Of a stretch of 43,907 nucleotides of DNA, positions 253 to 17,494 are shown in pieces. The notes beneath the pieces are model-generated. The model was not told the DNA's origin. It made no database searches and saw nothing but the letters and a program-made list of their open reading frames with translations. The position numbers were made by a program, and so were the translations under genes. Position 1 is the stretch's first letter. Each line of letters starts with the position of its first letter. Source of the stretch: Candidatus Scalindua sp. (GTDB lineage: Bacteria > Planctomycetota > Brocadiia > Brocadiales > Scalinduaceae); the NCBI GenBank assembly GCA_021776915.1, contig JAIQZU010000065.1, positions 1-43,907 of the forward strand, written 5' to 3'.

Positions 253-375
253 CTAATTTCCCACGATTTTGATTTCTTCCGGGGTGAGGTCGTAGAGTTT
301 GTAAATTAATCTATCAATCTGTTTTTCGTGTTTTTGAACTTTTGTTTGATTAACATGGATATTTAAATAATCCTG
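253..375 (-). pseudogene. 3' remnant of a restriction-modification methylase/specificity protein
   Basis: Immediately downstream of the EVE gene's TAG stop (376-378), and in the same frame, the minus strand stays open to a TAG at 253-255. The peptide ends QIDRLIYKLYDLTPEEIKIVGN. From memory this is the characteristic C-terminal tail of Eco57I/TaqI-type methylases and restriction specificity proteins (pattern QIDxLVYxLYGLTxEEIxIV). There is no start codon or body of such a protein, so it is best read as a leftover 3' end after recombination or deletion. The complete methylase next door has a different, longer C-terminus, so this is not a copy of its end. Confidence 0.6.
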
Positions 376-807
376 CTATTTAGTATTATTTTCATCTTGG
401 GAAGTGATTTTGTCAAATTTTAATATCTTTTTATATTCTTCTAGTTTGATAGGTACAACGGAAATCCTCTTTTGTTTAATAATATCTGATGCTTTCAAAA
501 GCGTATCCTCTTTTATATCCTTTAATGTGATGCTTTTTCTAAAGGTTTTTACGGGAACAAAATTTATTGCAAGCCATTCTTCTTTAGTTGTTGTATCCTG
601 ATATGCTTTGCCTTTGACCTTCATAACTCCAAAAACAGATTTACCCATAGCGCTGCTGTACCATAATGCAATATCACTTTTTCGCATTTGTGCAATGTTT
701 TTTTTTGCTGCATGATTGCGGATGCCGTATAGTTTAAAAACACCCGCCATTAACACATCTTCCCATGTACGGGTTTTATATGGTGATCTAACAAGCCAGT
801 AGTTCAT
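376..807 (-). CDS. EVE-domain protein (modified-base reader)
   Basis: A protein of 143 residues opening MNYWLVRSPYKTRTWEDV, the usual start of the EVE family (PUA-like fold; MxYWLxKSEP...W). Other family marks are the KSDIALWYSS segment around residues 43-51 and the FGVMKVKGKAYQD strand around 59-71. EVE domains bind modified bases in DNA or RNA and recur beside restriction and other anti-phage genes. The ATG overlaps the TGA of the upstream methylase (ATGA, 804-807), so translation is probably coupled, placing it as third gene of the helicase-methylase operon. A role in reading the mark laid by the methylase, or a phage hypermodification, is inference. The reading frame runs on after the stop into a restriction-modification remnant. 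Confidence 0.8.
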   Translation of the reverse strand: MNYWLVRSPYKTRTWEDVLMAGVFKLYGIRNHAAKKNIAQMRKSDIALWYSSAMGKSVFGVMKVKGKAYQDTTTKEEWLAINFVPVKTFRKSITLKDIKEDTLLKASDIIKQKRISVVPIKLEEYKKILKFDKITSQDENNTK

Positions 808-3800
808 TTTTTTGCTTCGGTTTCTACTTTTCTTAAATTTTCTCTTTGCGCTTTAGCCAATTTCGGATACCTGCGGGCATACCAGTTTTCTACCTCTTTT
901 ATATCATCTTCGTTTAATTCGTAAGCTACATATACAAGTCTGTCTATTTCTACCTGTTCATTACTGGCGTAATTGTAACGTGGATTTTGTTTCTGTTTCT
1001 CAACTAACTTTCTTACATAATTTGTATCTTTAATTTTTGTTGTAACTAATGGAGATTCTAATAAAGTATCCCCTTCGGACTGTACAGTGTGTATTTGGTA
1101 TACTTTAAAAAGAAATCTAAACAGAGTTGAATTCAAAAGTCCAATAAATTGCTCAGAAATAAAAACTGCATTACTCTTCGAATCAAATGGAGTTTTTGAG
1201 CCGTATCTGAAGGTTGGACTGTAATCTCCCGTTCTAGAATAACTAATTGAAACAGTAAAATATTTTTCTGGATTCCTGATAACTGCGCAAAGGGTTGTCT
1301 TAGAATGAGGTGTAATCTTTTTATTTTCCTTTCTGTCTCTAATTCTTTGAGCTATAGTGTAACTTTTCATTCTATTAATAGCCCACTCGCTCCAGTCAAT
1401 AAAATAATCAGTCGGAACATAATAATTTGGCAACCATCCCTCACCGGCATCACTTGCTCCACCTTTGTCATAGGGAACAATATATCTACCATCAAAATAT
1501 CTTGTACTTTTAGAATTATTTTTTGATATTCCTTTATCAATAACAGATAATCTCAGATCATCATTGTTTCTTATTTTATTCAAATCATCGTCGGTTAACA
1601 AATACTCTTTGTAAGCATCAATACTCCTATAACTTCCTCTTGCATATGGTTTTTTAAACAGATATGCATAATTATCACCTGTTTGTAAACCTGCTTTTAC
1701 ATCTGCAATTTCACTCAGTTTTATCACTGGAATTTCTTTTCCGTTTACTTCAATCAGCCTTGCTCTTACTTGTTTGTCTCCTATTTGCATATCCTTTTTC
1801 TTCGAGGTTTTGTCATTCATAAAGGAAAATAGTTTAGGGCTTGCTACAAAGAATGGTAGATTAGAGTTTGTTTCTATTAAATTTTGCCGATAGGTATAGA
1901 TGGCATACTCTTCACTACTTTCGCTAGCCCAGTTGCTTCTCTGCATTTTTAACACTGGTAGCTTATCACCCTCTTTTTCGATATCTTCAATAATTTCAGC
2001 ATCTGTTGTCTGGTAAAGGAGTTCTAAAAAACGGTCGTGATTATCATGTATGCTTACGGTTGTCAGATCTGCCATCAGACATTGGTGGTTGTCATTATAA
2101 TTTTTTTTTGTCTTTTCTAATCTTTCACCTTCCGGAAATACATTTCTTTCACAAAGTATAATAGCAGTATTTACGGTTGCCTTAAAAGTATCGGGATGAA
2201 CACGAATCATTTTATAAATGTAGTTATCCATAATCTGTTTACGTAATTTGAAATGGCTTTTTATGGTCATAAAAGTATCACTAACTATATAAGCTAATAT
2301 ACCACCACTTTTAAGTGGCGTACTTTTACTACCAGAAGCAAGAAAGCGGGCTATAAAAGCCCCATATGGGTCTTTACTGCCAAGAGAGAGAGTGTTTTTG
2401 ATGTCATCGGATATTTTGTCACCGCCGTAAGGTGGATTACCGATAACAATATTAAAGCCGGCACCCTTAAGTTCAGGAAAAAAAATATCAAGATTGAAGA
2501 ATGGAGCGGAAATATTTGCATGTTTAAACCACTCCATTAAATATTTTTTATTTCTGATTTCTTCGCTTTTGCTATCAGCTATTTTCTTACCTGTTACTTT
2601 TTTTGCAAAATCAGGATATGCCTGATGAAGCGTGTCTATGATTTTATCTAAAAGTTCATCTTTTGCTTTATTCGACAGATTGCTATTTTGATAATACTTC
2701 TCTTTTGCAGGTATAAGTTTCTCTATTGCTAATTGTCCAAACAATTCCATCTGAGGCGAAGCATCTTTCAGAGTATTGGCGCAGATAATCTTTGTTTCAA
2801 GATTCGGAAGCGGAGAAATATGATAATTATGCTCAGCGTCAGAAAGATTAATGTCCTGTTCTATAAGCAGTGAAATAAAGAACCTTAACTTGGAGATCAT
2901 TACCGCCATTGGCTTAATATCAATACTGTAAATACTATTTCTGATAATTCCGATTTTTCGTGCATAATTAAGTTCATGTCGATGCAGGTCTTTTTTTGCC
3001 TGTTCTCTTAGTTCTATCTGCAGACGGTTTAATTGTGCATCTATCCAGAGATTATTATCAGGATCAACAACTTTTAATATTCTTACAAGCTTATGAAGCA
3101 TTCCCATAGGAAAAGCCCCTGAGCCGCAAGCCGGATCTAATACCTTTAATTGATCAACCGCCTGAATAATATTATGCTTAAATTCATTTTTATCATTTTC
3201 TACACGTTCGTAATAAATAAGATTTTTCAGGTTTGTAGCGTCAAAGTTGTTTTTAGCAAAGTAATTATTCAGATGTAAAAGCAACGACTCGTTTACCATA
3301 TATTCTATTACATTTCTCGGAGTATAAAAAGAACCTGATGCTCTTCTGGCTGTCGTTGATATGGTTTCATTTGGATCTATTTCAGCCAAAAGATTTTCAA
3401 ATATCAAACCGAGTAATTCAGGGTCTAGCGCAACCTCTTGTTCAAGAGAGGTGTTTTCATCAACTGTGAACTTATACTGTTCAAATATTTTATTTAAGCC
3501 TTTTGTCTTTCTCACATGTTTATCTACTCGAATTTCTAAATTTTCTGAATAGAAAAGCTCATTGGGTATTGTTATGGAATCGTCATCAATGCAGTCATTG
3601 CAATTATCTTCTTCCAGTTTGTCAAACAAGCCACCATTTAAGAATGGTATCTTTTTAAATTTATCAATGTCAAAGGCAAGTGATTTGGCAAAATAAAACG
3701 ACTGTCTCTCTTCTTGAGGTGTATTTAGAGATGAAAAAAAGATATTTTGAAGTATTGACCTGTAGTAGCCGTTTTGCTTGAAAAACGTATTCCTTTGTGT

Positions 3801-4697
3801 GATATTTTTGAGTAGCTTAAATGCTTTATCAAAATCAATCTCCAACAAATCTCTATCAATTAGTTTCATCTCCTTTAGAAACCAGCAGAAAAGAATTCGG
3901 CTTATTAGCCTTACCGCAAAATGTTTTACGTTCTCTTTATCGTCTTTGTAAAAATCAGGCTTAATAGGTAGTTTGATTTTAGTTAGTGCGCAGTAATACC
4001 AAGCTGAAACTTCCTGGTAAAATTTTTCATTTAATTCCTTGAGGTCTAGTGTCTTCTGCCATGCATTGTGAAGCGCAACAAAGTTTGTTATAGAATGTTT
4101 TAATTTTAATTCAGATAAGCTTAACTCAAAAAGTATCTCAATATGAGCACGGTGCGGCTTTTCAGTTGAAATGTCTTTGATAAGCGTGACTTTTTCGAGC
4201 ACATCTTTCTGCTCATCTCCTTTATGCGGACGGCGGTTGATCACAGATAAGGTGAGTGTCTTACCGTGTTTGAACAATACCATGACCGGCATGGAAAATA
4301 CCTTATTAATTTCACGGGTTATCTGGCTGAGAGCTGTTCTGCTATATTGTTTCTTGCTGAGTTTAATGGCAAAAAAGAGGTAGGATTCATAAATTGTCCG
4401 GTCAACCTGCTTAGTATCAAATAAATCAAGCTGGTTACTTATCTCGTCTCTGGAAAGCTGGAAAAGCAGATCTATGTAATCCCACTGTGGAACAAGCGCT
4501 TTTTCTTTATTAAAGCGGGTATCATTGTCCAGAAAAAACTCTTTGAAATAGGCATAAGACTTCTTTTCAAATGGCTGTTGCCGTTCTGTATTGTATCCGA
4601 GCATCTTGAAGAGAGAGAGGGAGTTGTCGGTCAGATTGCCTTTCTGGAATTTTTCAATCGCAGCTATTATGCTTAGCTTTGTGTCTGCCTGCGCCAT
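804..4697 (-). CDS. Large Eco57I/PglX-like N6-adenine DNA methyltransferase
   Basis: This 1297-residue protein carries amino-methyltransferase motifs. GSFYTPRNV (about 455-463) precedes motif I, LDPACGSGAFPMGM (about 520-533), and the catalytic motif IV is NPPY at about 754-757. The first 450 residues are a helical region without an obvious nuclease motif. The last 400 contain a target-recognition-like segment and end with the EIDRLVYVAYELNEDDI signature typical of such enzymes. The size and motif order resemble PglX (BREX) and DISARM DrmMI methylases. GAGGTG lies just before the ATG, in the 3-nt gap after the helicase gene. It probably methylates host DNA at a specific site so that the partner helicase/nuclease spares it; that partnership is inferred from the operon. 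A single-chain type IIG enzyme is less likely because no PD-(D/E)XK motif was seen. Confidence 0.85.
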   Translation of the reverse strand: MAQADTKLSIIAAIEKFQKGNLTDNSLSLFKMLGYNTERQQPFEKKSYAYFKEFFLDNDTRFNKEKALVPQWDYIDLLFQLSRDEISNQLDLFDTKQVDRTIYESYLFFAIKLSKKQYSRTALSQITREINKVFSMPVMVLFKHGKTLTLSVINRRPHKGDEQKDVLEKVTLIKDISTEKPHRAHIEILFELSLSELKLKHSITNFVALHNAWQKTLDLKELNEKFYQEVSAWYYCALTKIKLPIKPDFYKDDKENVKHFAVRLISRILFCWFLKEMKLIDRDLLEIDFDKAFKLLKNITQRNTFFKQNGYYRSILQNIFFSSLNTPQEERQSFYFAKSLAFDIDKFKKIPFLNGGLFDKLEEDNCNDCIDDDSITIPNELFYSENLEIRVDKHVRKTKGLNKIFEQYKFTVDENTSLEQEVALDPELLGLIFENLLAEIDPNETISTTARRASGSFYTPRNVIEYMVNESLLLHLNNYFAKNNFDATNLKNLIYYERVENDKNEFKHNIIQAVDQLKVLDPACGSGAFPMGMLHKLVRILKVVDPDNNLWIDAQLNRLQIELREQAKKDLHRHELNYARKIGIIRNSIYSIDIKPMAVMISKLRFFISLLIEQDINLSDAEHNYHISPLPNLETKIICANTLKDASPQMELFGQLAIEKLIPAKEKYYQNSNLSNKAKDELLDKIIDTLHQAYPDFAKKVTGKKIADSKSEEIRNKKYLMEWFKHANISAPFFNLDIFFPELKGAGFNIVIGNPPYGGDKISDDIKNTLSLGSKDPYGAFIARFLASGSKSTPLKSGGILAYIVSDTFMTIKSHFKLRKQIMDNYIYKMIRVHPDTFKATVNTAIILCERNVFPEGERLEKTKKNYNDNHQCLMADLTTVSIHDNHDRFLELLYQTTDAEIIEDIEKEGDKLPVLKMQRSNWASESSEEYAIYTYRQNLIETNSNLPFFVASPKLFSFMNDKTSKKKDMQIGDKQVRARLIEVNGKEIPVIKLSEIADVKAGLQTGDNYAYLFKKPYARGSYRSIDAYKEYLLTDDDLNKIRNNDDLRLSVIDKGISKNNSKSTRYFDGRYIVPYDKGGASDAGEGWLPNYYVPTDYFIDWSEWAINRMKSYTIAQRIRDRKENKKITPHSKTTLCAVIRNPEKYFTVSISYSRTGDYSPTFRYGSKTPFDSKSNAVFISEQFIGLLNSTLFRFLFKVYQIHTVQSEGDTLLESPLVTTKIKDTNYVRKLVEKQKQNPRYNYASNEQVEIDRLVYVAYELNEDDIKEVENWYARRYPKLAKAQRENLRKVETEAKK

Positions 4698-4700
4698 GTA

Positions 4701-7700
4701 TCACCTCAATATTAGCCATGTAACCAGTTCAAAGTTATCCATATCATGCAACTGTTTCGCGGATGGTATCAGCAGAGCACCTCTGTCTGATGTAAGCCTA
4801 TGGCTGCTTCTCTTTTTAAATATTCGAATAATTTCCTCGACCACCTTCTTTAACAGTTCTGTATATTCGTCCATATTCTTGCCATTTTGAGTATCTCCAT
4901 TGAAGAGTTCGCACAATTTATCATAAGGGACTTTTTTACCCTGGCACATAAGGCGGTAGATTTCCAGAATTTGTTTGGCATGAGTGTAGTTGTATCTCAC
5001 CGTACCATCGCTACGAATATAAACCAGAAAGTACGGATTGAGAGGATTAACTTCCTCGTTGCCTTCGTTCTCTCCCTTTTGTTTCAGGCAGAATACCACA
5101 CCGGGTTTGATTATATCTTTTTCATTTGCAGTAAACTGATCAGATCCGAACAAACCGGCGTGTTCACCTGATAGGGATGGAACTACCGCATAGAGTCCGA
5201 ATGGAGCATCAGCTAAACGTTTACGGTTACTCTCAATGAAGTTCATGAGTTCTATTCTGAAATCATCCAGAGTAAAGTCGGTAAGAGAGACGGATTCGTC
5301 CATGTCTTCCAGGTCAAGCACCTCATCTTTCAATTTCTTTAATTGTTTACTACGGTACTTTAGATCATCTGTTATAAGTTCTTCGATCTGTTCTACGTTT
5401 AATATGTTGTCCTCGCCGGTTGCCGTAACATCTACCAGAGCCATACGAGCCTCTACCCTTTCTTTGAGATTTATATAATTATCCAGGTCTTTTGTAGGCC
5501 AGAAATTCACCAGTTGAATCGTGGTGTTTATACTGCCCAATCTGTCAATACGCCCGAACCTTTGAATAATCCGTACCGGGTTCCAATGTATATCATAGTT
5601 GACTAGATAATCGCAGTCCTGCAGGTTCTGGCCTTCGCTGATACAGTCAGTGGCAATCAGGATATCAATCTCCGCTGTATTATCTGTTTTGAAAAGTTTC
5701 ATTTGAGCTGCCGATGTCATTCTTGAGCGATTCTTGGATATTGGTGAGAAATTTAGAAGGATACTATCGTAATCTGGTTTACCATAGGTTGTTTGTGTAT
5801 AACTTCCGCAGACAAGAGCGGAGTGCAGGTTCAGTTCATTTTGACACCATTCTTTGATGTTTTCGTATAAATACTTAGCAGTATCTGCAAAGGCGGTAAA
5901 AACAATAACTTTTTTATTGTTATCGTTGAATGGTGATTTTACTTTTTTTGTTATGAGACTCTTTAATTCTGCGAGTTTAGCGTCTCTTTCCGGCGTTACT
6001 GCATTGGCGTTATTGAGCAAATCGACGAGCGCTTCTTTGTCTTTTTTGAGATCAACAAGCCATTTTTGTAGATTAATATCCGCAAGGTCGAATTTAAGTT
6101 TTTTACCGACCTGCCACTGTTCCATGTCCTCGCCATCTTCTTCCAGCTCTTCTTCATCCGGTTCTATGCTTTCCAGTGATTCTTCCTGAGAATCCTTTTG
6201 GGATTCTAGAAAATCATTTATTTTATTTTCGAGTTTTTCAATTTTCTGAATAGTCCTGTCGAGAGATATCTCAAATGACTCGATTGAGCTTTCAAGGCGT
6301 TTGAGATAATTCACTTTCATCATGCCGATAAGGAAGTATTCACGGTCGGTTTGACTAAATGCCAGAACTTCTGTTGATGCCAACTCTTCGTATTTTTTTT
6401 GCTTTTCAGGCTTAACATAAGCCGAAGGATTAAAAACCGACAATTTGTATTCAAGTATTTGCTTATTTATACGGTCGTAGGATGGAAAACGATTTCTCAA
6501 ATCGATCTCTGGATAAACAGAGTGCGGTTTGTTTCTTTCAGGAAATTTTCCAATAGTTTCAATCTTATAAAAGCTTTTAACATGCTTCCTTGAGCGGGCA
6601 ATAGTAAGCTCATCGAGAAGTTTGAAAAAAGAAGAATCTAGTTTCTCCAATAGCTGCTTCATGGTCCGGTTAGGATTTTTTGTTTGATCTGCCCATAGTG
6701 TGAAATGTGTCTGGGCGTTTTTAAGTGTCTGCCCGATGTCTTTTATTTTACAGGATTCAAGGAGTGCATTATCTTCACCTTCGGTAATCAAGGAAATCTG
6801 GTTGCGTAGATCTCGCAGACTGTTATTTACCGGTGTCGCAGAGAGCATGAGGACTTTGGTTTTTACACCGTCTTTAATGACTTTTTCCATCAGCCATTTT
6901 GCACGATTCATTTTTAATGAACCGTCTTCTTTTGTTTTTTCAACTGGATTTCCTCTGAAATGATGAGATTCATCAATAACGACAAGATCGTAAGCGCCCC
7001 AGTTGAAGTTTTCTAAATCGATACCGTTTGCAGCAGAATGGCCTGATACCCGTGCCATATCTGTGTGGTAAAGAACTGTATAATTATACCTGTCCTTCTT
7101 GAATGGATTTAAAACATGATTCTGGCTGGCCTGATATATTGTCCAGTTGCCAGTCAGCTTCTTCGGGCAAACGACAAGGACACGATTATTCAATAATTCA
7201 AAGTATTTTATAACGGCTAAGGCTTCATAAGTCTTGCCCAAACCCACACTGTCGGCGATAATACACCCATTGTGTTTTAGTATTTTATTTATTGCGCCTT
7301 TAACGCCATCTTTCTGAAAATCATAAAGAGTGTCCCATACTTCACTGTCGAAAAAGCCTGTACGTTCATTAAGCAGCCCACCTCTCTTTTGCTCATCCAG
7401 GTAATTCTCAAATATATGATACAGTGTTTTGTAGTAAATAAATTCAGGTTCATTTTCCAGATAAAGCTGTTCAAGGTATTTAAGTACCTGCTCTTTGACG
7501 TCTTCAACAAGTCCGGTCTTATCATTCCAGATAGAGTCGAACCATTCTTTAAGTTCCAGTCTATCGCGATCACTGTCTATAACAAGATTCAACTCGATAT
7601 TCCTGCTGCCACCAAGGCCCAGTCCATTAACTGTAAAATTTGAACTGCCAGCAATCGCTTTCTCTATTCCACTTTCTTGATGAATGTGGTACATCTTTCC

Positions 7701-8063
7701 ATGCAGAAAATTAGGCTTCACCATGGAACGAATATCAGTTTTTGATTTAATCCATTCTGAACATTCTTTTGCAACAGTCTTTTGAGTTAATCGGCTTTCA
7801 AGTGGAATTACAATTTTTTCATCCTCAATCTTAAAATCCCTTACGTTTGTTTTGTCAGGATCCATAGACTTGATGAATGTCGGCTCCCCAAACAGGAATC
7901 TGAGATTATTGATACCATCAAGGTTACTCTTAAGACGATGATACGCATAAATAGTAAAATATGCAGACACTATGGAAATATCAGATTTTTTGGTGATGGC
8001 TTGTTTTAAGAAATCACCAACATTACCGTTTGAATGATTGTCTCGGATTGCGGAATTACTCAT
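4701..8063 (-). CDS. PLD-nuclease domain fused to SNF2-type SF2 helicase
   Basis: A protein of 1120 residues. The N-terminal 200 residues form a phospholipase D-like domain with one HxK motif (H121, K123) followed by the GSSNFTVNG segment (about 139-147), as in PLD-type nucleases. A superfamily 2 helicase follows: motif I DSVGLGKT (about 271-278), motif II DESH (about 364-367), motif III SATPVNN, and motif VI in QRFGRIDRLG. A charged coiled-coil-like insertion (EESLESIEPDEEELEEDGED) lies between the two helicase lobes. It presumably translocates on DNA and cuts through the PLD domain, which would normally need dimerisation because only one HxK is present. It heads the operon with the methylase and EVE genes; AGGAGAG precedes its ATG. 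It resembles DISARM DrmD-like helicases, but no drmA or drmB is in the window. Confidence 0.85.
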   Translation of the reverse strand: MSNSAIRDNHSNGNVGDFLKQAITKKSDISIVSAYFTIYAYHRLKSNLDGINNLRFLFGEPTFIKSMDPDKTNVRDFKIEDEKIVIPLESRLTQKTVAKECSEWIKSKTDIRSMVKPNFLHGKMYHIHQESGIEKAIAGSSNFTVNGLGLGGSRNIELNLVIDSDRDRLELKEWFDSIWNDKTGLVEDVKEQVLKYLEQLYLENEPEFIYYKTLYHIFENYLDEQKRGGLLNERTGFFDSEVWDTLYDFQKDGVKGAINKILKHNGCIIADSVGLGKTYEALAVIKYFELLNNRVLVVCPKKLTGNWTIYQASQNHVLNPFKKDRYNYTVLYHTDMARVSGHSAANGIDLENFNWGAYDLVVIDESHHFRGNPVEKTKEDGSLKMNRAKWLMEKVIKDGVKTKVLMLSATPVNNSLRDLRNQISLITEGEDNALLESCKIKDIGQTLKNAQTHFTLWADQTKNPNRTMKQLLEKLDSSFFKLLDELTIARSRKHVKSFYKIETIGKFPERNKPHSVYPEIDLRNRFPSYDRINKQILEYKLSVFNPSAYVKPEKQKKYEELASTEVLAFSQTDREYFLIGMMKVNYLKRLESSIESFEISLDRTIQKIEKLENKINDFLESQKDSQEESLESIEPDEEELEEDGEDMEQWQVGKKLKFDLADINLQKWLVDLKKDKEALVDLLNNANAVTPERDAKLAELKSLITKKVKSPFNDNNKKVIVFTAFADTAKYLYENIKEWCQNELNLHSALVCGSYTQTTYGKPDYDSILLNFSPISKNRSRMTSAAQMKLFKTDNTAEIDILIATDCISEGQNLQDCDYLVNYDIHWNPVRIIQRFGRIDRLGSINTTIQLVNFWPTKDLDNYINLKERVEARMALVDVTATGEDNILNVEQIEELITDDLKYRSKQLKKLKDEVLDLEDMDESVSLTDFTLDDFRIELMNFIESNRKRLADAPFGLYAVVPSLSGEHAGLFGSDQFTANEKDIIKPGVVFCLKQKGENEGNEEVNPLNPYFLVYIRSDGTVRYNYTHAKQILEIYRLMCQGKKVPYDKLCELFNGDTQNGKNMDEYTELLKKVVEEIIRIFKKRSSHRLTSDRGALLIPSAKQLHDMDNFELVTWLILR

Positions 8064-8127
8064 GTGTTACTCTCTCCTGTTCTTTTGCACAGGTCTCGGT
8101 CGGGTTTATAAATGTATATGAAAACTC

Positions 8128-8241: not shown

Positions 8242-8484
8242 TTAAGCAACTTCCAAAGAACGAACGTTGAATATTTCATTTTCGGTTAACGGTTCAATTG
8301 CCGATTCAGGCAGAGTTATAACGGCTATTGTGTTTCCGAGTACATCGAATACTTCTAATGAATAACCATCTTCTCCATTTGAGACGGGATGATGATCCAC
8401 AATAGTTGCAACGTCGCCTTTTTTTAATCTTTTTTCGGGAATATCTTTTGTTAGAACTATTTCATTAAATAATTTATATGCCAT
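8242..8484 (-). CDS. DUF4926 domain protein
   Basis: An 80-residue protein beginning MAYKLFNEIVLTKDIPEKRLKKGDVATIVDHH and continuing to EVFDVLGNTIAVITLPESAIEPL, which I recognise as the DUF4926 pattern (a small SH3-like beta protein). AAGGAG sits 7 nt before the ATG. It begins 4 nt after the DUF6883 gene ends, and these two families commonly occur as an adjacent pair. From memory, such pairs are suspected toxin-antitoxin or immunity-like modules, but no activity is established. Its position next to restriction-type genes fits an accessory defence cargo. Confidence 0.7.
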   Translation of the reverse strand: MAYKLFNEIVLTKDIPEKRLKKGDVATIVDHHPVSNGEDGYSLEVFDVLGNTIAVITLPESAIEPLTENEIFNVRSLEVA

Positions 8485-8488
8485 CTTA

Positions 8489-8818
8489 TTACTCCTTTTT
8501 ATCTGGATACATTGTGATAAATTTGCTTATACCTGTTTCTGTTTCTATTATCCAAATTGTACAAACAGAAAGACTTGTTCCATTAGGACCGGTAAGTTTT
8601 CCTTTAATTTCATAAAGCTGACCATATTCCGTTTTTTCCGTCGGCACTACATCAAGAGATAAAATCTGCTTCCTCAAATCATACTCCAAGACTTTCCAAT
8701 TTTCAATAGTATATCCTAGTTTACTAAGCCACCGGGATTTATCATTACGCTTTTTAAATGCTAACAGATAATCGGTTAACTTTGCTGGTACAATTAATGT
8801 GTTTTCGGATAATTTCAT
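8489..8818 (-). CDS. DUF6883 domain protein
   Basis: A protein of 109 residues with the DUF6883 layout: an N-terminal strand and helix (LIVPAKLTDYLLAF), then SRWLSKLGYTIENWKVLEYDLRKQ, and a C-terminal beta region with TVWIIE-like residues (CTIWIIETETGISKFITMYPD). It is the first gene of a two-gene unit with DUF4926. The ribosome site is weak. The function is unknown. Related domains occur as toxin-like modules in several bacterial groups, so a toxin role with DUF4926 as partner is possible but unproven. Confidence 0.65.
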   Translation of the reverse strand: MKLSENTLIVPAKLTDYLLAFKKRNDKSRWLSKLGYTIENWKVLEYDLRKQILSLDVVPTEKTEYGQLYEIKGKLTGPNGTSLSVCTIWIIETETGISKFITMYPDKKE

Positions 8819-8964: not shown

Positions 8965-9103
8965 AAAGTCCTCGGCGTTTTCCAGTCCGGGGAAAGTCCT
9001 CGGCATTTTCCAGTCCGGGGAAAGTCCTCGGCGTTTTTCAGTCCGGGGAAAGTCCTCGGCGCCTTTTGTCCGGGGAAAGTCCTCGGCGTTTTCCAGTCCG
9101 GGG
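8965..9103. repeat. Five-unit 28-bp tandem repeat array
   Basis: The motif AAAGTCCTCGG begins at 8965, 8993, 9021, 9049 and 9076, giving units of 28, 28, 28, 27 and 28 bp that end in CCGGGG. Within a unit TCCTCGG can pair with CCGGGGA (one G-U), so each unit could fold into a stem with a loop of about 11 nt as RNA. There are no unique spacers, so it is not a CRISPR. The array is much richer in GC than its surroundings and lies between the DUF6883 gene and the PIN toxin pair. Confidence 0.9.
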
Positions 9104-9108
9104 ATAAC

Positions 9109-9141
9109 TGCCCGCCTGAACGACATGTCGGGCAGGCAACC
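9109..9141. repeat. GC-rich palindromic element, right copy
   Basis: TGCCCG (9109-9114) pairs with CGGGCA (9129-9134). The ends TGCCCGCCTGA and AGGCAACC match the ends of the element at 93-129 while the centre differs. It directly follows the 28-bp array and precedes a perfect 12-bp hairpin. Confidence 0.5.
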
Positions 9142-9387: not shown

Positions 9388-9591
9388 CTACTTACTTCCG
9401 AATAAATCATCTAAAAACTTGTTTTTATCAAGTTCGGATTGCCACTTTTGATGCCTTTTCACAGATTCAATCCTCTTTTGGGATGGAAACGATAAAAACC
9501 TACTCGTCTCTATTGGCCCTAATTTTTCCATTAAAATATCAACACCTTGTTTCAGCAATTTTTCGTCTTTTATATATTGACCTTGCTTCAC
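9388..9591 (-). CDS. Small partner (putative antitoxin) of the PIN protein
   Basis: I place the start at the GTG at 9591. It has AAAGGAG 8 nt upstream and overlaps the TGA of the PIN gene by 4 nt (GTGA), whereas the longer frame would begin at a TTG at 9612 without a good site. The 67-residue product has a helical segment (LLKQGVDILMEKLGPIETSRFLSF) and a basic-acidic C-terminus (KWQSELDKNKFLDDLFG). The EKLGPxExxRFL pattern resembles small proteins that I recall coded next to PIN-domain genes in cyanobacteria and planctomycetes. An antitoxin role is inferred from coupling to the toxin. The order is reversed relative to most vapBC loci (toxin first). Confidence 0.6.
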   Translation of the reverse strand: MKQGQYIKDEKLLKQGVDILMEKLGPIETSRFLSFPSQKRIESVKRHQKWQSELDKNKFLDDLFGSK

Positions 9592-10034
9592 CTCAAGTTC
9601 TCCTTTGTGCAAAAGTTTACAGGATTAACAGCTTCCATATTAATACCTTTTAATTTGTGGATGTTCTTTAACAATTTATCATCGCAGGTAATAAAGTAAT
9701 CTGCCGATGTTTCAGCAAATGCTACATGTGCTGCATCAGCAATTCCAAAATTTAAGGAATGCAAATCTTCAGTTCTTCTTTTAATTTCATTCAATTGGAA
9801 TGATGGTTTCTTGCCGTATCTGTTTAACAAAACAGTTAATTCTATACGCTCATATATATCTTCTATAGCTTCAATCTCCTCGAAATGTACAGGAGATACA
9901 ATAATCTCAAAAGTTCTATCCTGAATACTTTTTAAAATCAGGTAGTATGCATCAGTTTCAAGACGTATTCGCATCATAGATTGATTATCAAATGGACGGC
10001 ATAAAGTGCAAACGTCTAAGTATATTCTTTTCAT
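9588..10034 (-). CDS. PIN-domain ribonuclease (VapC-like toxin)
   Basis: A protein of 148 residues with the PIN-domain acidic residues in order: D7 in MKRIYLDVCT, E52/E53 in SPVHFEEIE, D100 in FGIADAAHVAFAE, and D118/D119 in FITCDDKLL. Such proteins are Mg-dependent RNases, in VapC toxins usually cutting tRNA or rRNA. It is followed by a small translationally coupled gene likely to encode its antitoxin. The ATG at 10034 has no strong ribosome site. The pair lies at the border between the accessory island and the conserved aminoacyl-tRNA synthetase/ribosomal operon, which fits a horizontally acquired module. Confidence 0.8.
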   Translation of the reverse strand: MKRIYLDVCTLCRPFDNQSMMRIRLETDAYYLILKSIQDRTFEIIVSPVHFEEIEAIEDIYERIELTVLLNRYGKKPSFQLNEIKRRTEDLHSLNFGIADAAHVAFAETSADYFITCDDKLLKNIHKLKGINMEAVNPVNFCTKENLR

Positions 10035-11091: not shown

Positions 11092-13113
11092 TTATGCACG
11101 GAGTTTTATACCAAAGGCATTACTGAGATTTTCAAGGATTTCCTCCTGTAACTTATCTACCTCTTCACTCTTCAAGGTTCTATCATCCGCCCTGAATATC
11201 AATCTGAAGGCTATGCTCTTCTTGCCATTCTCAACCTGTTTACCCCTGTAGACATCAAAGAATTCTATGCCATCGACGTAGTTTATATTAAGTGATTCTA
11301 TGCACCCTTTTATGTCTGCCCATGTAACCGCCTCATCACTTACAACTGCCATGTCTCTCGTCACCATGGGTAATGATGGAATTTTCCGGTAGGAACTTTC
11401 AAGATTTGTGTTATCTATCAGTATATTGTAATCTAACTCTGCCACACACGGTTTGGTCCTGAAATCATAATCATTAATGACTTCTCTACTCAATTCACCA
11501 ACATATCCCAGTAACTTACCGCCCAGTTTGAGCGCTGCAGATTTCCCAGGATTGAACAGGTCAAAATCATAACGCATGGTCTCAAGCTCCTGCACAATAT
11601 TTAGTTGACTGAGGATTGTCCCTATAACACCTTTTAAGGATAGAAATCCTTCCTCACCAAGAATACACAGGCACTCCTTTTCCTCCGGCATCCCATCATC
11701 TTCCTGAGGTAAATATATCTTGGACAATTCATATATATTCGTCTTCTCAACACCATAGTTCTGATTGTGCTTTTTTACACGCAGCAGATTATGCACAAGT
11801 GCTTTTCTCAGAAGATTTTCGTCCTGCCGTATCGGGTTAATAATTTTCAAACTGCTCATTTCTGACCAGATAGCACCGTGCCTTTCATGCAACTCGCCTA
11901 CAATACTGTCCGTAATAACTTCATCAAAACCCAGTCCGGAAATAACAGATTTTGTTTTTTCGGTAACTTTGTCGAATATGTTGTCCTGTGTCAATTTTAC
12001 ACCAATATTACTTTCTGCCTGTATTTTGTCGTATCCGTGAATCCTGGCCACTTCCTCTATCAAGTCTACTTCCCGATATACGTCACCCCTGAAGCTGGGA
12101 ACCTCTACAGTCAGATTGTCTTCCGTTTCTCCCTCCGGCTTTATTTTGAACTGTAAACGTTCCAGGATATCCTTCGCTGTTTTCTTATCTATATGAAGCC
12201 CCAAAAGACTGTCCAACCGGGACATCCTCAAAGCAACACTCACCTTTTTGTATTCAAGATAGTTTCGGTCGATTACACCTTCTACAACATGACCACCAGC
12301 AATATCCAATATCATCTTTGCCGCCCTCCTTGATGCCCAGTCGATACATTCAGGATCCACACGACGTTCAAAGCGATAGGAGGAATCCGAGATGAGACCC
12401 AGTTTTCTCGAAGTTCTTCTGACATTTCTCGGATCAAAGAAGGCGCTTTCCAAAAGAATGTTTTTTGTGGTATCAGAGACTTCTGTGTCCCTCCCGCCCA
12501 TTATGCCAGCAACGGCAACCGGTCTTTGAGCGTCTGCAATTACCAGCATGTCATCCGTAAGCGTACACTTGCTGCCATCTATTGCCTCCATGGTCTCACC
12601 CTTCTTTGCCATTCTGACAATAATCTTCTTCCCACTTAATTTGTCAAAATCAAAGGCGTGTAACGGTTGACCACTCTCCATCAAGACATAATTTGTAATG
12701 TCTACTATGTTATTCACGGGGCGCAATCCGATGCTGCTAATTCTTTTTTGAAGCCATTCGGGTGATGGGGCTATTTTCACATCTTTTATAATTCGTGCCG
12801 TATACCTCTGGCATAATTCATTATCTTCTATTGTAACACCGGTTAAATCATTCACATTTTCAGTTGTTGTCTCATAATCCACACCTGGAATAATAAGCTC
12901 ACTGCGTACAATAGCGGCAACCTCTCTTGCGATACCAATAAAACCCAGACAATCAGGCCTGTTAGAGGTAACCTCAACCTCCAGGCAGAAATCATCATCC
13001 ACAGGATTTATTGTATCAACTACCAGTCCTGCATTCGTCAATTTCTCTGCCAATGCCTCTACGGAGAGATCGTGTTTGCAGTAATCCTTAAGCCAGTTGT
13101 AGCTTATTTTCAT
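11092..13113 (-). CDS. pheT: Phenylalanyl-tRNA synthetase beta subunit (short form)
   Basis: Forms the alpha2-beta2 PheRS with PheS. The 673 residues start MKISYNWLKDYC. They contain the B3/B4 editing core (PLHAFDFDKL, AGIMGGRDTEVSDTTKNILLESAFF), the B5 domain, the catalytic-like core, and the C-terminal ferredoxin-like anticodon-binding domain (SLPMVTRDMAVV to the end). Most bacterial PheT proteins are about 790-800 residues and carry an EMAP/OB tRNA-binding domain of about 110 residues after position 40. Here the sequence passes from GLVVDTINPV straight into FCLEVEVTSNRPDCLG, so that domain is missing cleanly and in frame. It starts 4 nt after pheS ends. Confidence 0.95.
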   Translation of the reverse strand: MKISYNWLKDYCKHDLSVEALAEKLTNAGLVVDTINPVDDDFCLEVEVTSNRPDCLGFIGIAREVAAIVRSELIIPGVDYETTTENVNDLTGVTIEDNELCQRYTARIIKDVKIAPSPEWLQKRISSIGLRPVNNIVDITNYVLMESGQPLHAFDFDKLSGKKIIVRMAKKGETMEAIDGSKCTLTDDMLVIADAQRPVAVAGIMGGRDTEVSDTTKNILLESAFFDPRNVRRTSRKLGLISDSSYRFERRVDPECIDWASRRAAKMILDIAGGHVVEGVIDRNYLEYKKVSVALRMSRLDSLLGLHIDKKTAKDILERLQFKIKPEGETEDNLTVEVPSFRGDVYREVDLIEEVARIHGYDKIQAESNIGVKLTQDNIFDKVTEKTKSVISGLGFDEVITDSIVGELHERHGAIWSEMSSLKIINPIRQDENLLRKALVHNLLRVKKHNQNYGVEKTNIYELSKIYLPQEDDGMPEEKECLCILGEEGFLSLKGVIGTILSQLNIVQELETMRYDFDLFNPGKSAALKLGGKLLGYVGELSREVINDYDFRTKPCVAELDYNILIDNTNLESSYRKIPSLPMVTRDMAVVSDEAVTWADIKGCIESLNINYVDGIEFFDVYRGKQVENGKKSIAFRLIFRADDRTLKSEEVDKLQEEILENLSNAFGIKLRA

Positions 13114-13117
13114 AGTT

Positions 13118-14137
13118 TTAAAATTGTGACAAAAACCTCAGGTCATTTTCAAAGAAAAGCCTGATGTTATCTATTCCATACTTTAGCATGGTAAGCCTCT
13201 CCACACCCAGACCAAATGCAAACCCGGTATACTTCTCCGCATCATAGCCAACAGTCTCAAACACATTAGGATCTACCATTCCTGCACCCAAAACCTCAAC
13301 CCAGCCACTGTGAGAGCACACACTGCATCCTTTCCCCTTGCAGATGGAGCATGAAATATCTATCTCTGCACTGGGTTCGGTAAAGGGAAAGAAAGAAGGG
13401 CGGAATCTCATCTTAATATCCTGCCCGAAGTATGACTGGGCAAACAGGGTTAAAACGTATTTCAGATCGCTGAAGCTCACACCTTCATCCACCATCAAAC
13501 CTTCAATCTGATGAAACATAGAGGCATGTCGGGCATCAACTGTATCCGGCCTGAAAACCTTTCCGGGAGCAATCATCCTTATGGGAGGTTTCTTCTTCTC
13601 CATCACCCTTATCTGTACTGTTGAGGTCTGGCTTCTCAGGAGGCGTTTGTTGCCCAGATAAAATGTATCAAAATCTTCTCTGGACGGATGGTCTGCGGGT
13701 ATGTTCAGGGCATCAAAATTGTAGTATTCGTGTTCTACTTCAGGACCGTATTCTATATCAAAACATAGTTTTCTGAAAATCCCTTTGATTTCATCAATGG
13801 TCTGTGTAATGGGGTGCCTGCGTCCATAATGCATGCATTTCCCTGGTAGTGATAGATCAAATATCTCTTTTGGTTCAGAAGTCCGTTCTTTATTAACAAA
13901 TTTTACTTTTGCCTCTTCTATCCATTTACTGATTTCCTGCTTAAGCTTGTTTGCTGATTTACCGGTTAACGATCGCTGTTCCGGGGGCAAGCCGGGAATC
14001 GCCTTAATTACATCACTAATAATACCGCCCTTTCTTCCGAGATATCTTGTCTTTATCTTTTCAACTTCTTCCAGAGATTCAGCCTTTGCTAAATCTTCTT
14101 TTGCCTGATTTTGTATTTCACTTAATCTTTCTTGCAT
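13118..14137 (-). CDS. pheS: Phenylalanyl-tRNA synthetase alpha subunit
   Basis: Catalytic subunit of PheRS, 339 residues. It has an N-terminal coiled coil (about 1-90), then class II motif 2 (around RTSTVQIRVMEKKKPPIRMIAPGKVFR) and motif 3 (AFGLGVERLTMLKYGIDNIR) near the end. A CxxC...CxxC cluster (CSICKGKGCSVCSHSGW) lies before motif 3, as in many PheS proteins. The 237-nt gap to rplT has no clear T-box, terminator or peptide leader. It contains a 13-bp palindrome AACCG-GAT-CGGTT at 14197-14209. The start ATG has only a distant GAGG. Confidence 0.96.
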   Translation of the reverse strand: MQERLSEIQNQAKEDLAKAESLEEVEKIKTRYLGRKGGIISDVIKAIPGLPPEQRSLTGKSANKLKQEISKWIEEAKVKFVNKERTSEPKEIFDLSLPGKCMHYGRRHPITQTIDEIKGIFRKLCFDIEYGPEVEHEYYNFDALNIPADHPSREDFDTFYLGNKRLLRSQTSTVQIRVMEKKKPPIRMIAPGKVFRPDTVDARHASMFHQIEGLMVDEGVSFSDLKYVLTLFAQSYFGQDIKMRFRPSFFPFTEPSAEIDISCSICKGKGCSVCSHSGWVEVLGAGMVDPNVFETVGYDAEKYTGFAFGLGVERLTMLKYGIDNIRLFFENDLRFLSQF

Positions 14138-14374
14138 AAGAATCTAATCGAAAGAGGATTAATTGCTTGATGAAATTTTGCGGAAAGAGGTACCTGAACC
14201 GGATCGGTTGTTTATTCCTACTCAATCAGAAAGCCTGGAGCAATAAACGTAAGCCTTTCATTGATAATTACGGACAGTTGACGTTCAAGTTGACTCTGGC
14301 TTTATCAAAAACCCGGAATTCATATTGTTTTGTTCTGGTTCAAGTAGAATCAAAAAAATGAAATTGGAAGGAAA

Positions 14375-14728
14375 TTAAATATGCTGTTTTGATAACTCGA
14401 CCAACTCATCAAAAGCTACAGGATCGTTCACAGCGGTTTCCGCTAATATCTTCCTGTCAACTATAACATTGGCCTTTGTCAATCCATTAATGAAACGGCT
14501 ATAATTTATCCCACGCATTTTAGCTGCTGCATTTATGCGTAATATCCAAAGCTTCCTGAAGTCTCTCTTTTTACATTTTCTATCCCTATAAGCAAAAGCC
14601 ATTGCCCTCACATAAGTTTCACTGGCTCTACGATAAAGATTACCTCTGCCTCCCCAATACCCTTTTGTCGCATTTAGAAGTCTTTTCCTTCCTTGTTTCC
14701 TTGCTGAACCTTTTCTTACTCTTGGCAT
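14375..14728 (-). CDS. rplT: 50S ribosomal protein L20
   Basis: A protein of 117 residues with the family start MPRVRKGSARKQGRKRLLNATKGYWGGR and the INAAAKMRGINYSRFINGL core. It binds 23S rRNA early in large-subunit assembly and in several bacteria represses its own operon. It follows rpmI in the conserved infC-rpmI-rplT order; AAAGG lies 8 nt before the ATG. Confidence 0.98.
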   Translation of the reverse strand: MPRVRKGSARKQGRKRLLNATKGYWGGRGNLYRRASETYVRAMAFAYRDRKCKKRDFRKLWILRINAAAKMRGINYSRFINGLTKANVIVDRKILAETAVNDPVAFDELVELSKQHI

Positions 14729-14765
14729 TCTTAAAACCTTTCTTGTGCTTATTTTTAAATTTTAA

Positions 14766-14963
14766 CTATGCTTTCCCTAAAGCACGTAACAGTGTTCTGG
14801 TAAAACCCTTTGACACAAGGGCTGTTCTCTTGAGTCTCCTTTTGCGATCCCCGGTTTTCCCGGACATTAAGTGGCCTGCAAACGCCTTCCTCCTCTTAAT
14901 CTTGCCATTAGATGAAACTTTAACCCTTTTAGCGAGTCCTTTGTTAGTTTTTAATTTTGGCAT
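14766..14963 (-). CDS. rpmI: 50S ribosomal protein L35
   Basis: A protein of 65 residues, MPKLKTNKGLAKRVKVSSNGKIKRRKAF, the standard highly basic L35. AAGGAG is placed 7 nt upstream of the ATG. It lies between infC and rplT as in most bacteria. Confidence 0.97.
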   Translation of the reverse strand: MPKLKTNKGLAKRVKVSSNGKIKRRKAFAGHLMSGKTGDRKRRLKRTALVSKGFTRTLLRALGKA

Positions 14964-14989
14964 TCCAATACTCCTTCTTTCTTTAAATT

Positions 14990-15487
14990 TTACTTTGGTG
15001 TTAAGATTATCCCCATACTTCTTCCTGTAGACTTTGCTTGTGTTTCTACCTTGGCAATATCTTCCAGAGATCTTATAACTTCGTCAAATATTTCTTTAGC
15101 CATATCCTTGTGTGCTCTCTCTCGTCCTCTAAACATCATGTTAATCAGGACTCTATCTTTTCTCTCAAGAAATTTTCTTGCGTTCTTTACCTTTGTCTGA
15201 AGATCATGTGAACCAATTTTTGGCCTGACCCTGATTTCCTTTAACTGAACGGTGCGGCTTTTCTGATGTGATTTTTTGCTCAGTTTGTATTGATGTTTGC
15301 CATAGTCCAGAATGCGGCATACAGGTGGGTCCGTATTTGGTGAGACCTCAACCAGATCCAGGCCTAATTCTATAGCCTTACTGAGTGCATCAAGCTTTTT
15401 CATGACGCCTAATTGCTCTCCACCTTCACCAACAAGCCTTACTGTCTTTGCAAAGATTCGCTCATTAATTCTCTGATATTTCGAGAT
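14990..15487 (-). CDS. infC: Translation initiation factor IF-3 with ATC start codon
   Basis: IF-3 binds the 30S subunit and checks start-codon pairing. From the first ATG (15403) only 137 residues would be made, lacking the conserved N-terminal part. Upstream in frame the sequence encodes the missing family N-terminus, SKYQRINERIFAKTVRLVGEGGEQLGV, back to a TAG at 15503-15505. No ATG, GTG or TTG occurs in this extension. An ATC at 15485-15487 lies 5 nt after GGGGGTG, a good Shine-Dalgarno match, and gives 165 residues, a normal IF-3 length. A later ATT (15467-15469) has no such site. Rare AUU/AUC starts are known for infC and let IF-3 repress its own translation, so the ATC start is probably regulatory. 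The C-terminal domain (IRVRPKIGSHDLQTK, FRGRERAH) is intact. Confidence 0.93.
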   Translation of the reverse strand: MSKYQRINERIFAKTVRLVGEGGEQLGVMKKLDALSKAIELGLDLVEVSPNTDPPVCRILDYGKHQYKLSKKSHQKSRTVQLKEIRVRPKIGSHDLQTKVKNARKFLERKDRVLINMMFRGRERAHKDMAKEIFDEVIRSLEDIAKVETQAKSTGRSMGIILTPK

Positions 15488-15568
15488 CTCTACACCCCCA
15501 TTCTAAAAAGATTTAATTTTCCTTCACGCAAGTATACCAGTTGCCCAGGAAATTGATAAGGAGAAAAA

Positions 15569-17494
15569 CTAAGTTTTATTTTTCGCCTCCCCTTCAATAC
15601 GTACCAGGAATTCTGATAAAGGCAGAGACCCTTCGTCTCCGTTCTTACGACTCCTCACTGATACCGTGTCTTCCTTTATCTCCCTGTCGCCTATGATAAG
15701 AAGATAAGGGATTTTCTCCAGAGTGCCTTCCCTGATCTTAAAGCCGGTCTTCTCATTCCTTAAATCACATTCAGCACGAATACCCATCTCAGCTAATTGA
15801 TCTTTTATCTTATTACTGCAATCATCATGAGCGTCTGTTATTGGAAGCATCCTGACCTGTATCGGCGCCAGCCATAAAGGAAAGTCACCGGCATAGTGTT
15901 CCAGCAAACACCCAAGAAATCTCTCCATGGCGCCAAGTACGGTACGGTGTACCATCACAACCTTATGCTTCTTACCATCAGAGGCGATATAATTAACGTC
16001 AAACCTTTCAGGTAAATTAAAATCCACCTGAATGGTCGGCCCCTGCCAGCCTCTGCCCAGGGCATCCTTGATCTTTATGTCGATTGCCGGTCCGTAGAAC
16101 TTTGCCTCGCCTTCTTCACTCTTATATTCCAGCCCCTTTTGTTCAAGGGCGTTCTTCAGCGCGTCTTCAGCAAGATTCCAATTCTCGTCTTCACCTATAT
16201 ACTTTTCGGATTCTCCCTTCCCCCTGACCGCAAGCTCTATCTCGTATTCATTAAATCCAAAACTCTGGAGCATATATTGCGCCAGATCTATAATACCAAC
16301 TATTTCATCCTTTAGTTGATCCGGCCTGCAGAATACATGTGCATCATCCTGCGTAAAACCACGAACCCTCAAAAGCCCATGCAAAACACCCGACCTCTCA
16401 TACCTATAGACGGTACCAAGCTCTCCCCACCTAAGAGGCAGATCACGATAACTGCGAACCTTTGTTTTATACATAAGAATTGCGAATGGGCAATTCATCG
16501 GCCTTAATATATACTCCTGCCCTTCAACCTCTATAGGGGCATACATACTCTCTTTATAAAAATCCAGATGGCCGCTGGTTTTCCAGAGGTCTATTTTTGC
16601 AATGTGAGGGCTGTAGACTATGTCGTAACCGCGTTTATAATGTTCTTCTCTCCAAAACGTTTCAATAATGTTTCTTATCCTGGCCCCTTTTGGATGCCAG
16701 AAAACAAGACCGGGACCACCTTCTTCATGGAAACTGTAAAGGTCTAATGCTGTACCAACTTTTCTGTGATCACGTTTTTTGGTCTCTTCTAAAAACTTTA
16801 GATGTATCCTTAAATCCTTCTTATTCGTAAATACCGTACCATAAATCCTCTGAAGCATCGGGTTTGTTTCTTTTCCACGCCAGTATGCTCCTGCAACACT
16901 CAACAGCTTAAATGCCGTAATCTTTTTTGTACTGGCAATATGTGGGCCCCTGCACAGGTCAACGAAATCACCCTGCCTGTAAAAAGAAATCGTCTGGTCT
17001 TCCAACCCTTTGATCAGTTCAACTTTATATCTCTGACCTGATTCTTCCATCATTTTTACAGCCGCATCGCCAGTCTCTTCAAATCGGTCAAAGGTCTCAT
17101 CAGACTCTATAATCCTTTTCATCTCTGCCTCAATCTTTTCAAGGTCTTCTTCAGACAGAGTTGTATCCAGATCGAAGTCATAATAGAATCCGTCCTTTAT
17201 AGAAGGGCCAATCCCAAGTTTAGCATTCGGATATAAATTAGTAACTGCCTGAGCCATGACGTGAGAAGTACTATGCCTGAGTATCTCAAGCCCCTCCTCA
17301 GAATCGGCCATCACGAGATCCAGGGTTGTATCCGACTCAATCTGACAATCAAGATCCACAAGCGTACTGTTTACTTTACCGGCAATTGCTGTTGGTCCGT
17401 GATTTTGATCAGCAATATCGCTGGCAACATCCTTAACTGTCACCTTATCTTCATATTTCCTTTCAATGCCACCAGGCAGTGTTATCTTTACCAT
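15569..17494 (-). CDS. thrS: Threonyl-tRNA synthetase
   Basis: Charges tRNA-Thr. I start it at the ATG at 17494 (MVKITLPGGIERKYEDKV), which matches the family N-terminus. A longer frame reaches a TTG at 17572 but adds 26 unrelated residues. The 641-residue product has a TGS domain (1-60), an editing domain with HSTSHVMAQAV, and class II motifs (RPMNCPFAILMYK, RVRGFTQDDAHVF). The C-terminal anticodon domain (APIQVRMLPITDAHDD) follows. It heads the thrS-infC-rpmI-rplT-pheS-pheT(-lpxA) operon and is divergent from prfB. No strong ribosome site and no T-box-like leader were seen. Confidence 0.96.
   Translation of the reverse strand: MVKITLPGGIERKYEDKVTVKDVASDIADQNHGPTAIAGKVNSTLVDLDCQIESDTTLDLVMADSEEGLEILRHSTSHVMAQAVTNLYPNAKLGIGPSIKDGFYYDFDLDTTLSEEDLEKIEAEMKRIIESDETFDRFEETGDAAVKMMEESGQRYKVELIKGLEDQTISFYRQGDFVDLCRGPHIASTKKITAFKLLSVAGAYWRGKETNPMLQRIYGTVFTNKKDLRIHLKFLEETKKRDHRKVGTALDLYSFHEEGGPGLVFWHPKGARIRNIIETFWREEHYKRGYDIVYSPHIAKIDLWKTSGHLDFYKESMYAPIEVEGQEYILRPMNCPFAILMYKTKVRSYRDLPLRWGELGTVYRYERSGVLHGLLRVRGFTQDDAHVFCRPDQLKDEIVGIIDLAQYMLQSFGFNEYEIELAVRGKGESEKYIGEDENWNLAEDALKNALEQKGLEYKSEEGEAKFYGPAIDIKIKDALGRGWQGPTIQVDFNLPERFDVNYIASDGKKHKVVMVHRTVLGAMERFLGCLLEHYAGDFPLWLAPIQVRMLPITDAHDDCSNKIKDQLAEMGIRAECDLRNEKTGFKIREGTLEKIPYLLIIGDREIKEDTVSVRSRKNGDEGSLPLSEFLVRIEGEAKNKT

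Follow-up and report, generated by a model that had tools for sequence, protein, structure and literature searches.

Does the gene trio at one end of an anammox bacterium's contig make up a single defense system, and which of its parts belong to the machinery proper? The window considered here is the entire 43,907-nucleotide (nt) contig JAIQZU010000065.1 (GCA_021776915.1) of Candidatus Scalindua sp., and it carries three intact, adjacent genes on the - strand that encode a PLD-SNF2 helicase-nuclease (HEL), an adenine methylase (MT), and an EVE-domain protein. A previous reading of the same DNA, here called the original prediction, took the three as a defense cassette with the EVE protein as a base reader and third component. 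Our analysis places HEL and MT at the core, and the pair probably constitutes an ATP-dependent restriction-modification system made of two proteins, whose specificity cassette is exchangeable and which would act in defense.

4701..8063, - strand: HEL, PLD-SNF2 helicase-nuclease, 1120 amino acids (aa) (Pfam PLDc_2, SNF2-rel_dom, Helicase_C; PADLOC C3a139)
804..4697, - strand: MT, putative DUF4391-Eco57I adenine methylase with C-terminal recognition half, 1297 aa (Pfam Eco57I; HEL upstream in 71/80 MT loci)
376..807, - strand: EVE-domain protein, 143 aa (Pfam EVE; orthologues directly after MT elsewhere)

HEL and MT are separated by 3 nt (4698-4700), while MT and EVE overlap by 4 nt (804-807, ATGA), with the EVE start lying over the MT stop. 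The coordinates confirm the tight packing described in the original prediction.

A helicase-methylase pair is the recurring core

The MT alignment, used alone as a query, recovered 80 loci that span about 20 phyla. HEL lies upstream on the same strand in 71 of them, often at a spacing of ≤25 nt, and the remaining nine run into masking or the end of the sequence no more than 3.3 kb from MT. The recurring core is two genes, HEL and MT. We call helicases paired with a fused DUF4391-methylase, the window's kind, class B. A three-gene core was considered and rejected, as no third gene is constant across class-B loci; between or after the pair we observe, variably, KilA-N, YhcG/DUF1016 nucleases, Schlafen/AlbA, SMC-like ATPases, a Piwi protein, and others. 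The neighborhood survey proposed with the original prediction upheld the helicase-methylase pair. It did not uphold EVE as a constant third component, and EVE is absent from most relatives. Nor do class-B homologues always belong to a larger known system, an outcome that would have undercut the idea of a separate system.

Related SMC-like ATPases of 460-661 aa follow MT in 12 loci (L066, L067, L093, L095, L097-L100, L112, L122, L130, and L132; loci are designated by L numbers), and are a second candidate accessory. Some class-B loci, namely L106/L047 (Kuenenia) and L039/L134, are split into pieces by stops and frameshifts: loss of the system is under way in some lineages of anammox bacteria.

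The helicase keeps or loses its nuclease site with its partner

HEL scores above the Pfam cut-offs for PLDc_2 (38.6 bits; cut-off 27), SNF2-rel_dom (40; 24.9), and Helicase_C (63.2; 23.5). It also matches the PADLOC model C3a139, named ‘HKD+Snf2’, at 430 bits over residues 15-1117 of 1120, though the PADLOC library holds no curated cut-off for this model. The SF2 motifs DSVGLGKT, DESH, LSATP, motif V, and QRFGRIDR are all present; both the PLD-type HxK (H121/K123) and the complete SF2 set described in the original prediction were recovered.

7527..7814, - strand: PLD nuclease domain of HEL, residues 84-179 (Pfam PF13091)
7703-7695, - strand: PLD catalytic site, H121-G-K123, with GSSN at residues 139-142
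6786..7316, - strand: SNF2 N-terminal helicase lobe of HEL, residues 250-426 (Pfam PF00176)
5535..5930, - strand: C-terminal helicase lobe of HEL, motifs V and VI, residues 712-843 (Pfam PF00271)

A tree of HEL proteins resolves two sister clades that match the partner type without exception: 63 helicases with MT, and 35 in a type III clade, 33 of which have a visible partner. Loci of the latter class encode DUF4391 as a separate gene, then a type III Mod and, in most cases, Res. The split persists in a tree built without the PLD domain (Shimodaira-Hasegawa-like approximate likelihood ratio test values of 95 and 94). Motifs I, II, V, and VI are almost letter for letter alike in both classes, and across 96 helicases of both classes motifs I and II are invariant and motif III nearly so. 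The H, K, and GSSN of the PLD site are likewise invariant in class B (63/63), whereas HxK is absent from that place in all 33 type III-linked helicases, and GSSN is lost too. This loss is derived, because distant PLD-SNF2 relatives (L048, L052, L204, L208, and L209) retain HAK and GSSN.

These loci amount to a natural experiment, in which the helicase keeps its nuclease site where that site is the core's only nuclease, and loses it beside a type III Res. The three Res proteins examined from the type III-linked class have an RE_endonuc domain (115-128 bits), while apart from the HEL PLD domain no nuclease is common to class-B loci. Since HxK and GSSN are kept in class B and lost where Res is present, the simplest reading is that the PLD domain would do the cutting in the window's class. 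The earlier view of a compact, restriction-like system with nuclease and translocase in one protein fits well with this pattern.

Elsewhere the genome encodes another, distant PLD-SNF2 helicase that has HAK and GSSN (L052, G000:C42, 1693-5046) and adjoins a truncated methylase relative at a contig edge.

A putative adaptor on the methylase

MT reaches 66.2 bits against Pfam Eco57I (cut-off 25.3), and has the 1297 residues and the NPPY motif originally ascribed to it. NPPY occupies residues 754-757 (2438-2427, - strand), and is found in 66 of the 67 long class-B MTs, the remaining one having NPPW. The original prediction missed the DUF4391 fusion at the N-terminal end of the protein, and with it the link to the type III-linked helicases.

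4044..4508, - strand: DUF4391-like domain, MT residues ~64-218 (PF14335, hhalign, AlphaFold2 models)
2205..3419, - strand: N6-adenine methylase domain of MT, residues ~427-831 (Pfam N6_Mtase/Eco57I)
807..2180, - strand: C-terminal half of MT, presumed target recognition domain, EVE-linked type

PF14335 is matched by 44/44 class members scanned (best E 6e-8, window E 7e-5), and hhalign relates the MT N-terminus to stand-alone DUF4391 (P=2.4e-7). AlphaFold2 models of the fused and stand-alone domains, with mean predicted local distance difference test scores of 86 and 94, place helices and strands in the same order. Judged from profiles and predicted structures, the MT N-terminus is a diverged DUF4391 domain. 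Because DUF4391 is the sole partner shared by both HEL classes, fused in class B and a separate gene in the type III class, it is probably a helicase-methylase adaptor with a docking role. DUF4391, a family of unknown function, would thereby gain a role that can be tested, that of joining a restriction motor to the methylase it works with. In the open-access literature searched, DUF4391 came up in a single paper, and no mention of it together with a helicase was found.

We also considered, and rejected, a type IIG reading in which MT would have a nuclease domain of its own. Pfam shows no N-terminal nuclease, and the DUF4391-like domain stands there instead; there is also no significant PDB fold match, although a weak fold relation is still possible. 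PDB sequences queried with the whole MT gave no match. In a separate locus, L038, the class-B methylase frame (12834-17426) has an insertion between domains that resembles a REP-associated transposase domain by eye.

EVE travels with one type of recognition half

The nearest relative of HEL, in the Scalindua locus L060, is 91% identical and has no EVE beside it. Identity between the two MTs falls from 77% over residues 1-240 to 44% over residues 241-640, then to 33%, and to 21% in the C-terminal half; at the DNA level, an 88% match over 4126-8080 ends inside MT. The window's recognition half is 44-54% identical to those of L055-L058, whose helicases are less similar where visible. Only 375 nt can be seen past EVE, because the window is the whole contig, and within them lies a remnant of a second MT C-terminus that the original prediction did not report.

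256..351, - strand: MT tail remnant, past EVE (63.6% identity over 33 aa to the MT end of L081, E=1.4e-9, tblastn)

L058 likewise has a scrap downstream of EVE that resembles another MT's C-terminal tail (E 3e-5). Such scraps are as expected if a methylase half and EVE together replaced an older recognition half, and the best reading of these sequences is that the specificity cassette would be exchangeable, in the window including EVE. A recognition-domain search of viral contigs and an EVE-cassette DNA search of plasmids found nothing.

The identity of the third gene as an EVE domain is clear (82.4 bits; cut-off 23). Orthologues lie directly after MT in L057, L058, L185, L204, L207, and L211; helicase, methylase, and EVE recur together in L057, L185, L204, and L207, while in L058 and L211 methylase and EVE stand at contig ends. 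A profile of the recognition half retrieved L185, L204, L207, L211, L193, and L137, of which the first four were found via the recognition half alone, with L185 coming from the genome of an MT-retrieved locus. Among loci with the window's recognition half, 5/8 have an intact EVE adjoining MT, vs 0/49 among loci with other halves (Fisher P=1.3e-5). In this comparison the loci are not fully independent; L185 and L211 are excluded for masking or truncation, although both carry EVE; and of the five seeds of the profile, three had EVE and make up three of the five EVE loci counted.

The linkage has exceptions within the type, as L193 is without EVE and L137 has an EVE fragment only, downstream of MT. 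The helicase of L204 is only 31% identical, and an extra gene lies between it and MT. Brocadiales loci with other recognition halves hold truncated or decayed EVE copies (L038, L040, and L047). EVE is not core, and tracks one recognition-domain type. This linkage to the recognition half, and not to the effector, suggests a role for EVE in target choice.

A DUF3800 domain is fused after the EVE-linked recognition half in L193 (by Pfam) and in L137 (by eye).

Proposed mechanism and alternatives

Type I, ISP, and III enzymes, in which an unmarked site leads to DNA being passed on for translocation and cutting, provide the analogy for our proposal. As its family suggests, MT would recognize a site via its C-terminal half and mark self DNA by adenine methylation. 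Its N-terminal DUF4391 would dock it to HEL, as the occurrence of this domain both fused and as a separate gene beside the same helicase would imply. At an unmethylated site, HEL would be loaded, its SNF2 motor would translocate, and its PLD domain would cut, probably as a dimer because there is one HxK per chain. EVE would be part of this recognition cassette and not of the core. Its most likely function is to read a base modification and adjust site recognition, which would let the complex ignore or attack DNA according to its modification state. This is the weakest step in the scheme. If true, this pairing of a modified-base reader with a single recognition domain would have restriction systems use sequence and modification together in a new manner.

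Several points weigh against this scheme. We found no experiment on any class member, and no target sequence motif is readable for MT. The window's DUF4391 match, at 23.2 bits, is under the Pfam cut-off of 29.9. For the two DUF4391 models, the PDB offers no significant fold match. In the window, EVE has WYSS vs the usual YHS of its relatives. The minimal unit may also need helpers in some hosts, because in many class members additional genes separate HEL from MT or follow the pair.

More broadly, the locus could be one instance of a modular platform, in which the DUF4391 adaptor plugs varied methylase and recognition modules into one PLD-SNF2 motor-nuclease, and one module brings its own EVE reader as a second specificity subunit, so that targets are set by sequence and modification jointly; we hold this extension only tentatively. 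Other explanations give EVE a larger role, or none. A type IV-like arm might dominate, with EVE sensing modified phage cytosines and recruiting HEL while MT merely protects the host from background activity. There is precedent for such a sensor in VcaM4I, whose EVE binds and flips 5-methylcytosine and 5-hydroxymethylcytosine in DNA and gates a nuclease (PMC7897488), and a role of this kind was proposed by Bell 2020 for EVE beside SNF2-nuclease/methylase/DUF499 operons (PMC7641849). A general sensor of phage modification should, however, track the effector, whereas here EVE tracks the recognition type and most loci with the same helicase are without it, and we consider dominance by such an arm unlikely. 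That EVE is instead a passenger, hitch-hiking with one methylase lineage and playing no part in the system, strikes us as quite improbable. The decayed copies in L038, L040, and L047, all beside other recognition halves, do imply that EVE is readily lost. Yet it is translationally coupled wherever the junction is visible, either overlapping MT or lying only a few nt from it. Across phyla it has been retained (34-80% identity), and its decay is seen where another recognition half is present.

The remaining alternative is a DISARM-like, sequence-independent system, in which HEL would be a DrmD-type accessory and methylation would merely exempt self DNA. DISARM loci too combine an SNF2 helicase, an adenine methylase, and a PLD nuclease, and DrmD is the best NCBIfam relative of HEL. 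Its score of 156 bits is nevertheless far under the DrmD cut-off of 610, class-B loci have no constant further gene, and the missing DISARM genes weaken the case further. DUF1998/MZB (DrmB; PF09369) was not found in the assembled genome, a search in which control genomes were positive, the assembly being 95% complete and the contig ending 375 nt past EVE. DrmA (a YprA-type helicase) is not in the window's operon region, the only part of the genome covered by that search. We regard a DISARM-like system as very improbable, and favor the two-protein restriction-modification system with its exchangeable cassette.

Surroundings of the locus

Just upstream of HEL (8242-8818, - strand) are neighboring DUF6883 and DUF4926 genes (Pfam), possibly a toxin-immunity-like pair. 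Further upstream of the operon, 8965-9115 holds five tandem copies of a AAAGTCCTCGGCGTTTTCCAGTCCGGGG-type repeat at a spacing of ~28 nt, and 9588-10034 (- strand) encodes a 148-aa protein that is PIN-like by eye and has no Pfam match at 0.001. Promoter and terminator scans gave results near shuffled expectation and were not used.

Comparison with known defense systems

In the open-access papers searched, we found no description of class B, with its spread over about 20 phyla, which is no proof of novelty, and no paper on the PADLOC name C3a139 ‘HKD+Snf2’. Membership in DISARM, BREX, or DUF499 systems was considered and rejected, since marker genes are absent from the assembled genome: in addition to DUF1998/MZB, neither PglZ (PF08665) nor the DUF499 ATPase (PF04465) was found there, and PglX models score only 28-39 bits, with cut-offs of 400-900. 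The original prediction's verdict that this is neither a full DISARM nor BREX therefore stands. The window resembles Class 1 DISARM in its SNF2 helicase, large adenine methylase, and PLD nuclease activity, but has no drmA or drmB in the operon, has the PLD domain fused to the helicase, and falls far short of the DrmD cut-off.

The type-2 BREX-related BR (DUF499/Hma-like) systems share with our locus an HKD-SNF2 fusion effector and an N6-methylase (PMC12839542, PMC7641849), and the closest precedent is found in archaeal operons of SNF2-nuclease, COG1743 methylase, DUF499, and a stand-alone EVE, as here (PMC7641849). The window differs from BR/Hma systems in that no DUF499 is present in the genome, the helicase is of another family (PADLOC HmaA 85 bits vs C3a139 430), and the methylase is Eco57I-type with a fused DUF4391. 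Type ISP enzymes such as LlaBIII (PMC7049714) are alike in that motor, nuclease, methylase, and recognition form one ATP-dependent machine. That machine is a single polypeptide in type ISP, and two chains here. Type ISP enzymes are not known to have PLD or DUF4391.

Also close to the window's system are the type III-linked C3a139 loci. HEL homologues on plasmids, in archaea, and on viral contigs are 41-44% identical to the window's, and the PADLOC plasmid loci (E. coli, Acinetobacter, Enterococcus, Methanomethylovorans, and others) hold the same full-length helicase family at that identity. Type III Mod and Res are not in the window's operon, which consists of HEL, MT, and EVE alone, with MT being Eco57I-type. 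The type III-linked C3a139 loci share the DUF4391 partner domain with the window, but differ in having DUF4391 as a separate gene, a Mod methylase, mostly an added Res nuclease-helicase, and a lost PLD site.

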